NCBI GenBank assembly: GCA_017882765.1
Contig: JADGOW010000005.1
Location: forward strand, 1-34,560
DNA length: 34,560 nt
Source: Frankiaceae bacterium
Lineage (GTDB): Bacteria; Actinomycetota; Actinomycetes; Frankiales; Frankiaceae
Direction: 5' to 3'
The notes under the pieces were generated by a model that worked only from the letters and a program-made list of their open reading frames with translations, was not told where the DNA came from and searched no databases. This document shows positions 18,948-27,015 of the stretch, piece after piece; within the stretch, counting starts at the first letter, position 1; each line of letters opens with the position of its first letter. The translations under genes and the position numbers were made by a program.

Positions 18948-19928
18948 TCACCCCATCAGCCCCCGGGAGATCAAGTCGGCCACCCCGAACAGGAACAGGG
19001 CGATACCCACAACGCCGTTCATGGTGAAGAAGGCGCGGTTGACCCGCGACAGATCGTCGGGCGCCACGATGTGGTGCTCGTAGGCAAACGCCGCCGTGAC
19101 CACGATGAGGCCTGCGTACCACCACGGCCCCGCCCCGACCGCAGCGCCGAAGGCGATCAGCATCCCGACCGTGGCCACGTGGGCGGACTTGGCGACCCGC
19201 AGCGCGACGGGCGCCCCGAACCGTGCGGGCAGCGAGTGCACACCGGTGGCCCGGTCTGAGTCGATGTCCTGCAGCGCGTAGATGAGGTCGAAGCCGCCGA
19301 TCCACAGGCCGACGGCGGCTCCGAGCAGCACCGCCGACCAGGACCAGGCATCCGTGACAGCGATCCACGCCCCGATCGGGGCGATCATCTGGGCAAGGCC
19401 CAGCAGGCCGTGGCAGCCCCAAGTGAAACGCTTCCCGTACGGGTAAACGACCAGAGGAATCAGAGCCAGCGGGGCGAGGGCAAGGCACAGCGGCGACAGT
19501 GCCGCCGCCACCCCGAGGAACACGAGAAGCGACACCGCCGCGCCCGTGGCAGCGGTCCGCACGCTCATCGCGCCGGTGACGAGCTCGCGGCCGGCCGTAC
19601 GGGGATTGCGGGCGTCCACCCCTCGGTCAATGATTCGGTTTGCCGCCATCGCGAACGTGCGGGCCGCGACCATCGCCAAGGTGACCAGCGCGAGTGCATT
19701 CCAGTGCACGCTGCGGCTCACCTGGTAGGAGGCGTAGAGCACCGCAAGGTAGGCGAACGGCAGCGCGAAGACCGAGTGCTCGATCATGACGAGCCGCAGG
19801 AAGGCGCGGGCCGGCCCCCGCCGGGCCAGCCCCGGCCCCGGCCCCGGTCGGCCGTGCCGCTGTTCTGTCCGGCCTCGCGGCTGCTCCGTCAGGCCTCGCG
19901 GCGTCGCGGCCGCCGGCATCTCGGTCAC
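18948..19928 (-). CDS. mqnP: UbiA-family prenyltransferase (menaquinone biosynthesis, MqnP-type)
   Basis: GTG 19928 overlapping mqnL stop; ARTFAMAANRIIDRGVDARNPRTAGREL (NRxxD), DLIYALQDIDSDRATGVHSLPARFG second Asp motif. Confidence 0.9.
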   Translation of the reverse strand: MTEMPAAATPRGLTEQPRGRTEQRHGRPGPGPGLARRGPARAFLRLVMIEHSVFALPFAYLAVLYASYQVSRSVHWNALALVTLAMVAARTFAMAANRIIDRGVDARNPRTAGRELVTGAMSVRTAATGAAVSLLVFLGVAAALSPLCLALAPLALIPLVVYPYGKRFTWGCHGLLGLAQMIAPIGAWIAVTDAWSWSAVLLGAAVGLWIGGFDLIYALQDIDSDRATGVHSLPARFGAPVALRVAKSAHVATVGMLIAFGAAVGAGPWWYAGLIVVTAAFAYEHHIVAPDDLSRVNRAFFTMNGVVGIALFLFGVADLISRGLMG

Positions 19929-21376
19929 AGGCCGTACTCCCCCCACCGTCGGCTGACCCGCTCGACGACCGCCGGATCCTGACCGATCATGTCCGGCCAG
20001 CCGCGTGCGTAGCCCTCCCCGGGCAGCTTCCGAGTGGCATCGACCCCCGCCTTACCGCCCCAGAACTGGGAGTAGGACGAGTGATCGAGATGGTCCACCG
20101 GGCCGACCGTAGTCAGCAGGTCATGGGCGTAATCGACGTTACCGAAGGCGCGCCAGGCAACCTCGGAGTAGTCGTGAACGTCGCAATCGGCATCCACAAC
20201 CACGATGAGCTTCGACAGCGACAGCAGACCCGCGCCCCAGATCGCGTTCATCACCTTCTGGGCGTGCTTCGGGTAGCGCTTCTCGATGCTCACGATCACG
20301 CAGTTGTGAAAGACGCCCGCGACGGGCAGGTCGTAGTCGACGATCTCGGGCACGGTCATCCGGATGAGCGGCAGGAAGATGCGCTCGGTCGCCTTGCCGA
20401 TCGGTCCGTCCTCCTGGGGTGGCCGGCCGACCACGATGGACTGGTAGACCGGACCGCGCTGCATGGTCATGCATTCGACAGTCAGCGCCGGGAACGGTTC
20501 CACCGGTGTGTAGAAGCCGGTGTGGTCGCCGAAGGGACCTTCGGGCAGGCGGCGGCCGGGTTCCAGCCACCCCTCCAGCACGATCTGGGCCTGGGCGGGC
20601 ACCTGCAGCGGGACGGTCAGGCAGTCGACCAGGTCGACCCGCTGGCGGCGCAGGAAGCCCGCGAACAGGTACTCGTCGATCTCGGGCGGCAACGGGGCGC
20701 TGGCGCTGTAAGTGACCGCGGGGTCGCAGCCGAAGGCGATGGCCACCGGCAGCCGCTCACCTCTGCGCTCGGCCACCGCGTGGTGGGCGTTGGAGTCCTT
20801 GTGGATCTGCCAGTGCAGGCCCACGGTGCGCGGGTCGTGCTGCTGCAGCCGGTACATCCCGAGGTTGCGGTGCCCGGTGACGGGGTGCTTCGTGTGGGTC
20901 AGGCCCAGGTTGAGGAACGGCCCGCCATCCCCGGGCCACGCCATCACGCCGGGCAGCTCGTCCAGGTCGACGTCCGGGCCCCTGCGGACGACGTCCTGGC
21001 AGGACCCGTGCCGCACCTTCTTCGGCGGGACGCTGCGCAGGCTCGCCAGCTTCCCGAGCGCCTCCCGGAGCCCGCCGAATCCCGTAGGTACCTCGGGTTT
21101 GAGCAGCCCGGCAATCGTGTCGCCGATGTCGTCGAGCCGGTCGACGCCGAGAGCCCTCGCCATCCTCCGTTCGGTGCCGAACACGTTCATGGCCAGTGGC
21201 ATGATGCCCCGGGTGGGGCGGTCGAAGACCAGGGCGGGCCCACCCTCCCGAATGACCCTGGTCACGATCTCGGTGGCTTCCAGCGTCGGGTCGACCGGTA
21301 CCCGGACGTGCCGGAGATCTCCTTCGCGCTCCAACGCGGCAATGAAGTCCCGGATGTCCGAGTACGGGTAGGACAC
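19925..21376 (-). CDS. mqnL: UbiD-family decarboxylase (menaquinone biosynthesis, MqnL-type)
   Basis: 483 aa; RDFIAALEREGDLRHVRVPVDPTLEATEI, GMYRLQQHDPRTVGLHWQIHKDSNAHH, EGPFGDHTGFYTP; GTG start 21376. Confidence 0.92.
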   Translation of the reverse strand: MSYPYSDIRDFIAALEREGDLRHVRVPVDPTLEATEIVTRVIREGGPALVFDRPTRGIMPLAMNVFGTERRMARALGVDRLDDIGDTIAGLLKPEVPTGFGGLREALGKLASLRSVPPKKVRHGSCQDVVRRGPDVDLDELPGVMAWPGDGGPFLNLGLTHTKHPVTGHRNLGMYRLQQHDPRTVGLHWQIHKDSNAHHAVAERRGERLPVAIAFGCDPAVTYSASAPLPPEIDEYLFAGFLRRQRVDLVDCLTVPLQVPAQAQIVLEGWLEPGRRLPEGPFGDHTGFYTPVEPFPALTVECMTMQRGPVYQSIVVGRPPQEDGPIGKATERIFLPLIRMTVPEIVDYDLPVAGVFHNCVIVSIEKRYPKHAQKVMNAIWGAGLLSLSKLIVVVDADCDVHDYSEVAWRAFGNVDYAHDLLTTVGPVDHLDHSSYSQFWGGKAGVDATRKLPGEGYARGWPDMIGQDPAVVERVSRRWGEYGL

Positions 21377-21457: not shown

Positions 21458-21594
21458 GGTGACTGGCCGGAACTGCATGCAAGCCCTGCGCTCTTTCAAG
21501 ATTGCCTGCCCGAAGAGTGCCACCATACTGGGATATTTTCAGGCACCCACCCCTCTTGATCAGAAGAGCTTGCATGCAGTTACGGCCAGCCACC
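21458..21594. repeat. Long imperfect palindromic element (MITE/REP-like candidate)
   Basis: Left arm 21459-21487 gtgactggccggaactgcatgcaagccct; right arm 21565-21593, reverse complement gtggctggccgtaactgcatgcaagctct: 26 of 29 match, plus one more outer pair; inner pairings gctctttcaag/cttgatcagaagagc and tgcctg/caggca. Confidence 0.85.
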
Positions 21595-21647: not shown

Positions 21648-21691
21648 TAGGTCTGGGCTAGGTCTGGGCTAGGTCTGGGCTAGGTCTGGGC
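21648..21691. repeat. 11-bp tandem repeat taggtctgggc, 4 perfect copies
   Basis: 21648-58, 21659-69, 21670-80, 21681-91 identical. Confidence 0.97.
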
Positions 21692-21701
21692 TCTGAGCAG
21701 C

Positions 21702-22850
21702 TCAGACGCCCGCGTACGAGTGGAGCCCGGTGATCCAGATGTTGACGACGTAGTAGTCGATGAAGAGCGCGGCGAACCCGGTGAGCGCCACCAGCGCAGC
21801 GCGGCGCCCGCGCCAGCCTGCGGTCGCTCGCGCGTGCAGGTAGCCCGCGTAGATGACCCAGGTGATGAACGACCAGGTCTCCTTCGGGTCCCAGCCCCAG
21901 TAGCGGCCCCACGCCGCCTCCGCCCAGATGGCGCCGGCAATGACCGCGAAGGTCCAGATCGGGAAGGCGAAGGCGATGACCCGATAGGCGGTCCGGTCCA
22001 GGGTCTCTGCGGCGGGGAGCCGCGCCAGGATCCCGCCGCGAGTCACGACGGCGACCCCGGGCCCAGGCTCGTCGGGGTAGGGCACGGGCTGCCGACGCTC
22101 CCAGCGCTCCTTGAACAGGTACAGCACGGTCGTCGCGGCACCCACCATGAAGACGCCGCTGGCGATGATGGCCGCCACCACATGAATCTTGATCCAGTAG
22201 GAGTTGAGCGCGGGGACGAGCGGGCCGGCCGCCGTGTAGAGCACCTTGCCCGCGAGCCCCAGGTAGCAGACCACGGGCAACATGACGAACACACCGAGAT
22301 AGCGCACGGGCTGGCGGGCCATGAGCACGAGGAACGTTGTCACCGCGACCAGGGAGATCGCCGAGGAGAACTCGTACATGTTGCCCCAGGGCACGCGATG
22401 GGTCGCGAAGCCGCGGGCGACGAGAGACCCGACATGAGCCAGCCAGCCGAGGATCGTCAGAGCAACGGCGATCTTGCCGGCCAGGGCCGCCTGGTCACGC
22501 CCGGCCCCAGCACGCCCGGCCCCAGCACGCCCGGCCCCAGCACGCCCGGCCCCAGCACGCCCGGCCCCAGCACGCCCGGCCCCGTCACGCCCCGCCCCAC
22601 CGGCCCGGTCGTCGTCGCGCTCCGAAGCCTGCTGACCGGCGCCCTCGCCCGACGGGACGGCACCGGCGATCGGCGGCCCACCAGCGCCGACCAACGCCGC
22701 CTCGGGTTGCCGCTCGACCACGGGTTCACCCGCGCGTCGCCGGCGGAAGGCAAACTCGGCTGCATAGCCCAGCATGGCCAGCGAGTAGCAGACGACCGCC
22801 ACGAACAGCAGGTTGTCCGACAGCCGGGCAAGCCCGAGATCGACCGGCAC
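21702..22850 (-). CDS. ccsB: Cytochrome c biogenesis protein CcsB (CcsA/ResC family, heme channel)
   Basis: 382 aa, multi-TM; WGNMYEFSSAISL, LNSYWIKIHVVAAI, WGRYWGWDPKETWSFITWVIYAGYLHAR (WWD-type tryptophan-rich motif). Confidence 0.93.
   Translation of the reverse strand: MPVDLGLARLSDNLLFVAVVCYSLAMLGYAAEFAFRRRRAGEPVVERQPEAALVGAGGPPIAGAVPSGEGAGQQASERDDDRAGGAGRDGAGRAGAGRAGAGRAGAGRAGAGRAGAGRDQAALAGKIAVALTILGWLAHVGSLVARGFATHRVPWGNMYEFSSAISLVAVTTFLVLMARQPVRYLGVFVMLPVVCYLGLAGKVLYTAAGPLVPALNSYWIKIHVVAAIIASGVFMVGAATTVLYLFKERWERRQPVPYPDEPGPGVAVVTRGGILARLPAAETLDRTAYRVIAFAFPIWTFAVIAGAIWAEAAWGRYWGWDPKETWSFITWVIYAGYLHARATAGWRGRRAALVALTGFAALFIDYYVVNIWITGLHSYAGV
22495..22591 (-). repeat. 15-bp tandem repeat (cggccccagcacgcc), 5 perfect copies with degenerate flanks; encodes GAGRA repeats in CcsB
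   Basis: Perfect copies 22502-22576; degenerate unit cggccccgtcacgcc 22577-22591 and partial unit before 22502. Confidence 0.95.
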
Positions 22851-26971: not shown

Positions 26972-27015
26972 CTGGGGAGCGTTAGCGGGGCTATAGCCCC
27001 GCTAACGCTCCCCAG
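26972..27015. terminator. Perfect 44-bp palindrome, probable bidirectional terminator
   Basis: ctggggagcgttagcggggcta|tagccccgctaacgctccccag; 22-bp arms with no mismatch, between convergent genes ending 26945(+) and 27048(-). Confidence 0.7.

Follow-up and report, generated by a model that had tools for sequence, protein, structure and literature searches.

Dispersed small palindromic repeats with conserved paired arms in a Frankiaceae genome

Introduction

REPINs, which are among the small repeats found in bacterial genomes, consist of two conserved inverted ends with a spacer between them that is less conserved and of set length. They are extragenic and commonly carry compensatory changes (PMC3116915). 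MITEs, Correia elements, ERIC and RUP form a second group of relevance here: they measure about 100-200 bp, end in inverted repeats, have no evident coding capacity and are dispersed between genes.

In this report we analyse an element located in a 34,560-nt stretch of DNA from a Frankiaceae bacterium, referred to below as the window, together with its relatives elsewhere in the same genome. It shares the properties just listed with the second group and, as expected of a MITE, it is short, devoid of evident coding capacity, bounded by terminal inverted repeats, multicopy and dispersed. It differs from that group in that neither a target-site duplication nor a parent transposon was found, in having only 13 full copies, and in a centre that is far more diverged than the arms although the 136-bp span is nearly constant. 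With REPINs it has in common a conserved inverted end pair, a variable spacer of set length and an extragenic location, but no arm-flanked RAYT was found, no compensatory changes were detected and the copies are far fewer. Its anatomy is therefore closest to that of MITEs and REPINs, while the duplication and the partner gene by which these are tested were not found. These small palindromes between genes constitute a real repeat family, so far encountered in a single genome. Our literature searches on Frankia and on actinobacterial MITEs yielded nothing relevant and no such element, and the family, apparently undescribed until now, adds to the repeats of the actinobacteria.

Results

The window copy

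The strongest spaced inverted repeat in the window is the palindrome at 21458-21594, the parts of which are listed in Table 1. When the arms are taken as 30 nt each (21458-21487 and 21565-21594) they are complementary at 27 of 30 positions (90%) and enclose a spacer of 77 nt. In 20 shuffles of the window under a first-order Markov model, the best 30-nt arm match ranged from 19 to 24, and the palindrome proposed in a first-pass annotation of this DNA is therefore real. Folded as single-stranded DNA, the copy has a free energy of -42.9 kcal/mol (z = -3.57). It is also comparatively AT-rich, with a GC content of 0.569 against 0.709 for the whole window and 0.729 for the remainder of the intergenic gap. 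The mirrored GRNCMQAL peptides that had been pointed out on the two strands are both present in the list of open reading frames, yet they are trivial, because an inverted repeat produces them automatically. The copy lies 107 nt past the stop codon of ccsB and 81 nt ahead of the start of mqnL. Two tandem repeats lie nearby. One, at 21648-21692 between the element and ccsB, consists of the 11-bp unit TAGGTCTGGGC repeated perfectly 4.1 times; the other, at 22496-22599 within the ccsB reading frame, repeats a 15-bp unit about seven times, which gives the protein a recurring AGAGR stretch.

Table 1. Coordinates of the window copy, its parts and the flanking genes
Feature	Position	Strand	Remarks
Full element, window copy	21458..21594	+	137 bp, the usual length plus 1 bp; 94.2 bits against family model R1 (in-sample, as R1 was built from the same copies)
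5' arm, 27 nt	21458..21484	+	GGTGACTGGCCGGAACTGCATGCAAGC; 0.83 mean pairwise identity across copies against a baseline of 0.27
Variable centre	21485..21567	+	83 nt in the window copy, 82 in most copies; middle 49 columns 0.43, baseline 0.26
Inner box 1	21497..21502	+	CAAGAT; family consensus CAAGATC; from the copy alignment
Inner box 2	21555..21561	+	CTTGATC; family consensus CCTTGATCnnAAgAGC; from the copy alignment
3' arm, 27 nt	21568..21594	-	inverted 5' arm, 25/27; mean pairwise identity 0.78
ccsB (gene name from the first-pass annotation)	21702-22850	minus	flanks the window copy
mqnL (gene name from the first-pass annotation)	19925-21376	minus	flanks the window copy

Thirteen full copies with sharp ends

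The draft assembly of the host (2,991,513 bases, or 3.0 Mb, in 292 contigs, 94% complete), which is probably a MAG, was searched by BLAST, by pattern and then with a sequence-only model. These searches gave a total of 13 full copies and one half copy, the latter on contig C79 at about 1347-1412. The full copies are located on 13 contigs (C280, which contains the window, and C248, C3, C175, C230, C271, C237, C83, C88, C35, C231, C66 and C138) and score 82-108 bits with the family model, these scores being in-sample for copies known beforehand from BLAST and pattern. Eleven of the 13 are 136 bp long, the exceptions being C83 (135) and the window copy (137), and almost all arm matches in the host genome belong to paired elements. 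The earlier statement that the window contains no second copy is correct; the 12 further full copies lie elsewhere in the genome, and the element is thus not single-copy.

The 27-nt arm consensus is GGTGACTGGCCGGAACTGCATGCATGC. Between copies the arms are about 80% identical (Table 1) and the centres only 40-50%. Identity in the flanks is near chance, 0.29 on one side (baseline 0.30) and 0.37 on the other (baseline 0.33), so that the ends of the element are sharp. Departures from the consensus number 2-10 per copy over the 54 arm positions and 17-42 over the 82 centre positions, and across copies these two measures of divergence are uncorrelated (r = -0.15). The identity of each centre to its nearest counterpart is 0.44-0.76, the closest two centres being 76% identical. 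No two copies are near-identical, and recent movement is therefore not visible. Within the centre, the inner boxes CAAGATC and CCTTGATC recur at almost fixed positions. In C3 and C35, reading by eye revealed seemingly compensating 1-nt internal shifts that leave the overall length unchanged. Gene conversion between the arms of one copy was considered and rejected, as it would have homogenised them, which is not observed.

The hairpin is not a visibly conserved feature

The two arms of a copy match each other at 21.5 of 27 positions, compared with 21.7 of 27 for arms taken from different copies (permutation p = 0.73). RNAalifold detected no compensatory or covarying pairs, with 0 of 16 pairs changed on both sides. 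Halves swapped between copies fold as stably as the real halves with either RNA or DNA parameters (p = 0.67 and 0.77, respectively, for the whole element, 0.11 and 0.14 for the centre, 0.98 and 0.99 for the arms). With 13 copies, the power of all these tests is limited where the arms hardly vary. Because arms match no better within copies and swapped halves are equivalent, the hairpin is not visibly conserved, and the tests favour arms that are recognised in double-stranded form rather than a hairpin under selection. Neither a terminator nor a promoter match was obtained, and the element contains no Rfam match; a sub-threshold Rfam match to a microRNA lies outside the element and was discarded.

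Genomic surroundings

Gene positions around the copies were taken from our own simple codon-usage gene call. By this call the copies are intergenic, apart from the one on C271, whose sequence shares 13 bp with the end of ilvD. Neighbours named from Pfam include RelA/SpoT, PGI, asparagine synthase, an inositol-phosphatase family protein and the ilvD C-terminal domain, among others, and one neighbouring pair, also named from Pfam, consists of a class I/II aminotransferase and a dapD-type succinyltransferase (here termed dapC and dapD). Tandem and convergent gene pairs both occur, the C230 copy for instance lying 38 and 35 bp from the stop codons of two converging genes; no divergent pair was found among those that could be classified. 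When the gene call is combined with the alignment, the element, which is asymmetric, is seen to occur in both orientations relative to transcription. Tandem and convergent contexts in either orientation are at odds with a role as promoter or leader for a single gene.

Distribution outside the host

No convincing copy was found in 34 genomes of the family; the sole weak match (G008:C101) had no arm pair when it was read. A 395-genome sample of the class, with members of the family among them, was scored under more stringent filters and contained no copy besides those of the host genome. An exact two-arm pattern, which recovers 7 of the 13 host copies, was applied to 84,980 species genomes and matched only a palindromic contig end in Streptomyces pseudogriseolus, unrelated to the element beyond the pattern. 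The phages, plasmids and viral contigs searched contained no copy.

The order ccsB-mqnL is kept in most of the relatives examined, with larger gaps, and none has the element. The order dapC-dapD is likewise kept in most relatives, and the element is absent from those genomes. The comparison of empty sites that had been suggested for ccsB-mqnL gaps thus finds the gene order without the element, in relatives that, for both gene pairs, are members of other genera. In several of the dapC-dapD gaps of relatives (L170-L195) a CCTCGTAAGGTCGGGCCTGTG-like motif at the start of dapD resembles a leaderless promoter, and in the host gap the end of the element lies just upstream of a similar CTCATAGGCTCCAACCATG.

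Tests of mobility

Over the 13 copies no target-site duplication was detected. The best of about 1,100 combinations of length and offset reached z = 2.5, which is unremarkable because so many were tried, and the remark that there is no clear duplication therefore holds for all copies. Such a duplication, if once present, could have been erased by age. The draft, which is 94% complete and in 292 contigs, showed no autonomous transposon with these ends, though assemblies of this kind frequently lack insertion sequences. A PF00872 (IS256-type) transposase was not found in the host genome.

The only Y1_Tnp gene in the assembly (C139:8097-8450; L167, G000:C139) is situated at a contig end, with an IS605-type hairpin upstream (AAGCCCACGACTTCAGTCGTGGGTC), unrelated to the arms, and an apparent tnpB start downstream. 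No arm is present on this contig, the best match being 17/27. This gene was considered as a RAYT, but with its tnpB-like start, its hairpin and no arm it reads as IS200/IS605. A RAYT flanked by arms, or adjacent to a REP or REPIN, was not found in the draft assembly. By eye, HVP stands at the expected position of the HUH motif in the Y1 gene, and this enzyme may thus be inactive. A reading of the element as an integron attC site was provisionally set aside on the basis of the GTTRRRY box of such sites.

Discussion

The copy number, the sharp ends, the unrelated sites and the absence from relatives all point to spread by movement. The copies probably represent an old, dispersed, non-coding repeat family of inverted 27-bp sites at a fixed 136-bp span, which most likely spread in the manner of a MITE or REPIN. 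We infer that the arms are bound by a protein, that transposition gave rise to the copies and that the spread ceased long ago. A miniature non-autonomous element would have been moved in trans by a recombinase, which would have recognised each arm as double-stranded DNA, until movement stopped. The first-pass suggestion of a MITE- or REP-like element is largely right, given that the repeat is multicopy and that no convincing copy turned up in the other family, class, phage, plasmid or species genomes searched. Its dispersed, intergenic and palindromic nature, the lack of a protein of its own and the relatives with the same gene order but no element agree with this suggestion; the duplication, a transposon with the same ends and a RAYT, which would have completed it, were not found. 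The reading as a REPIN, a REP doublet mobilised by a RAYT, which is a Y1 transposase encoded by the host in single copy, has only a small chance of being correct. The anatomy does match the published description (PMC3116915) and one Y1_Tnp gene is indeed present, but that gene has the surroundings of an IS605-type element on a contig with no arm, and the compensatory changes common in REPINs were not detected. An element that acts as RNA, whether as a 3'-UTR hairpin, a terminator or a leader attenuator, has a very small chance. Its hairpin potential is strong and several copies lie directly downstream of a gene. Against this, no terminator, covariation or Rfam signal was detected, swapped halves are equally stable and the copies take either orientation to their neighbours. 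The leader or attenuator of mqnL that had been proposed is not supported: the other copies adjoin unrelated genes, some of them convergent, and halves are no more complementary within a copy than between copies.

The contrast between conserved arms and diverged centre could reflect either selection acting where the copies now lie or a transposase that preserved the arms while mobile lineages diverged. Under the first of these, the copies would be paired binding sites that the host maintains, with purifying selection acting on each of them however they originated, and a candidate protein of the nucleoid, segregation or replication type would bridge or wrap the 136 bp. Neutral decay after a single burst would affect arms and centre alike, and the uncoupled divergence therefore favours such sites, as does the total length kept despite the shifts read by eye in C3 and C35. 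However, transposition that keeps the arms functional while the centres of mobile lineages diverge would leave the same pattern, and a core system that organises the chromosome would not usually be missing its sites in relatives. We consider host maintenance rather unlikely, and it is doubtful that the 13 elements form a lineage-specific chromosomal site system acting in place through putative binding at the 27-bp inverted arms with their 136-bp span. A paired-site system of this kind would perhaps have begun as a mobile element and been co-opted for chromosome architecture. Uncoupled divergence of arms and centre, a fixed span and no hairpin signal together offer a simple means of deciding, for small bacterial repeats, whether selection acts on a DNA site or on a hairpin.

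A second palindrome in the window

Between two converging genes, at 26972-27015, the window contains a perfect 44-nt palindrome, consisting of CTGGGGAGCGTTAGCGGGGCTA and its complement with a spacer of 0. It perhaps belongs to another dispersed family of palindromes, or acts as a terminator in both directions. Half-site matches in the genome number 20, compared with 8 for a reversed-pattern control, and similar half-sites recur in pairs with the same 20-bp offset at C145:6301-6336 and C267:6088-6123.
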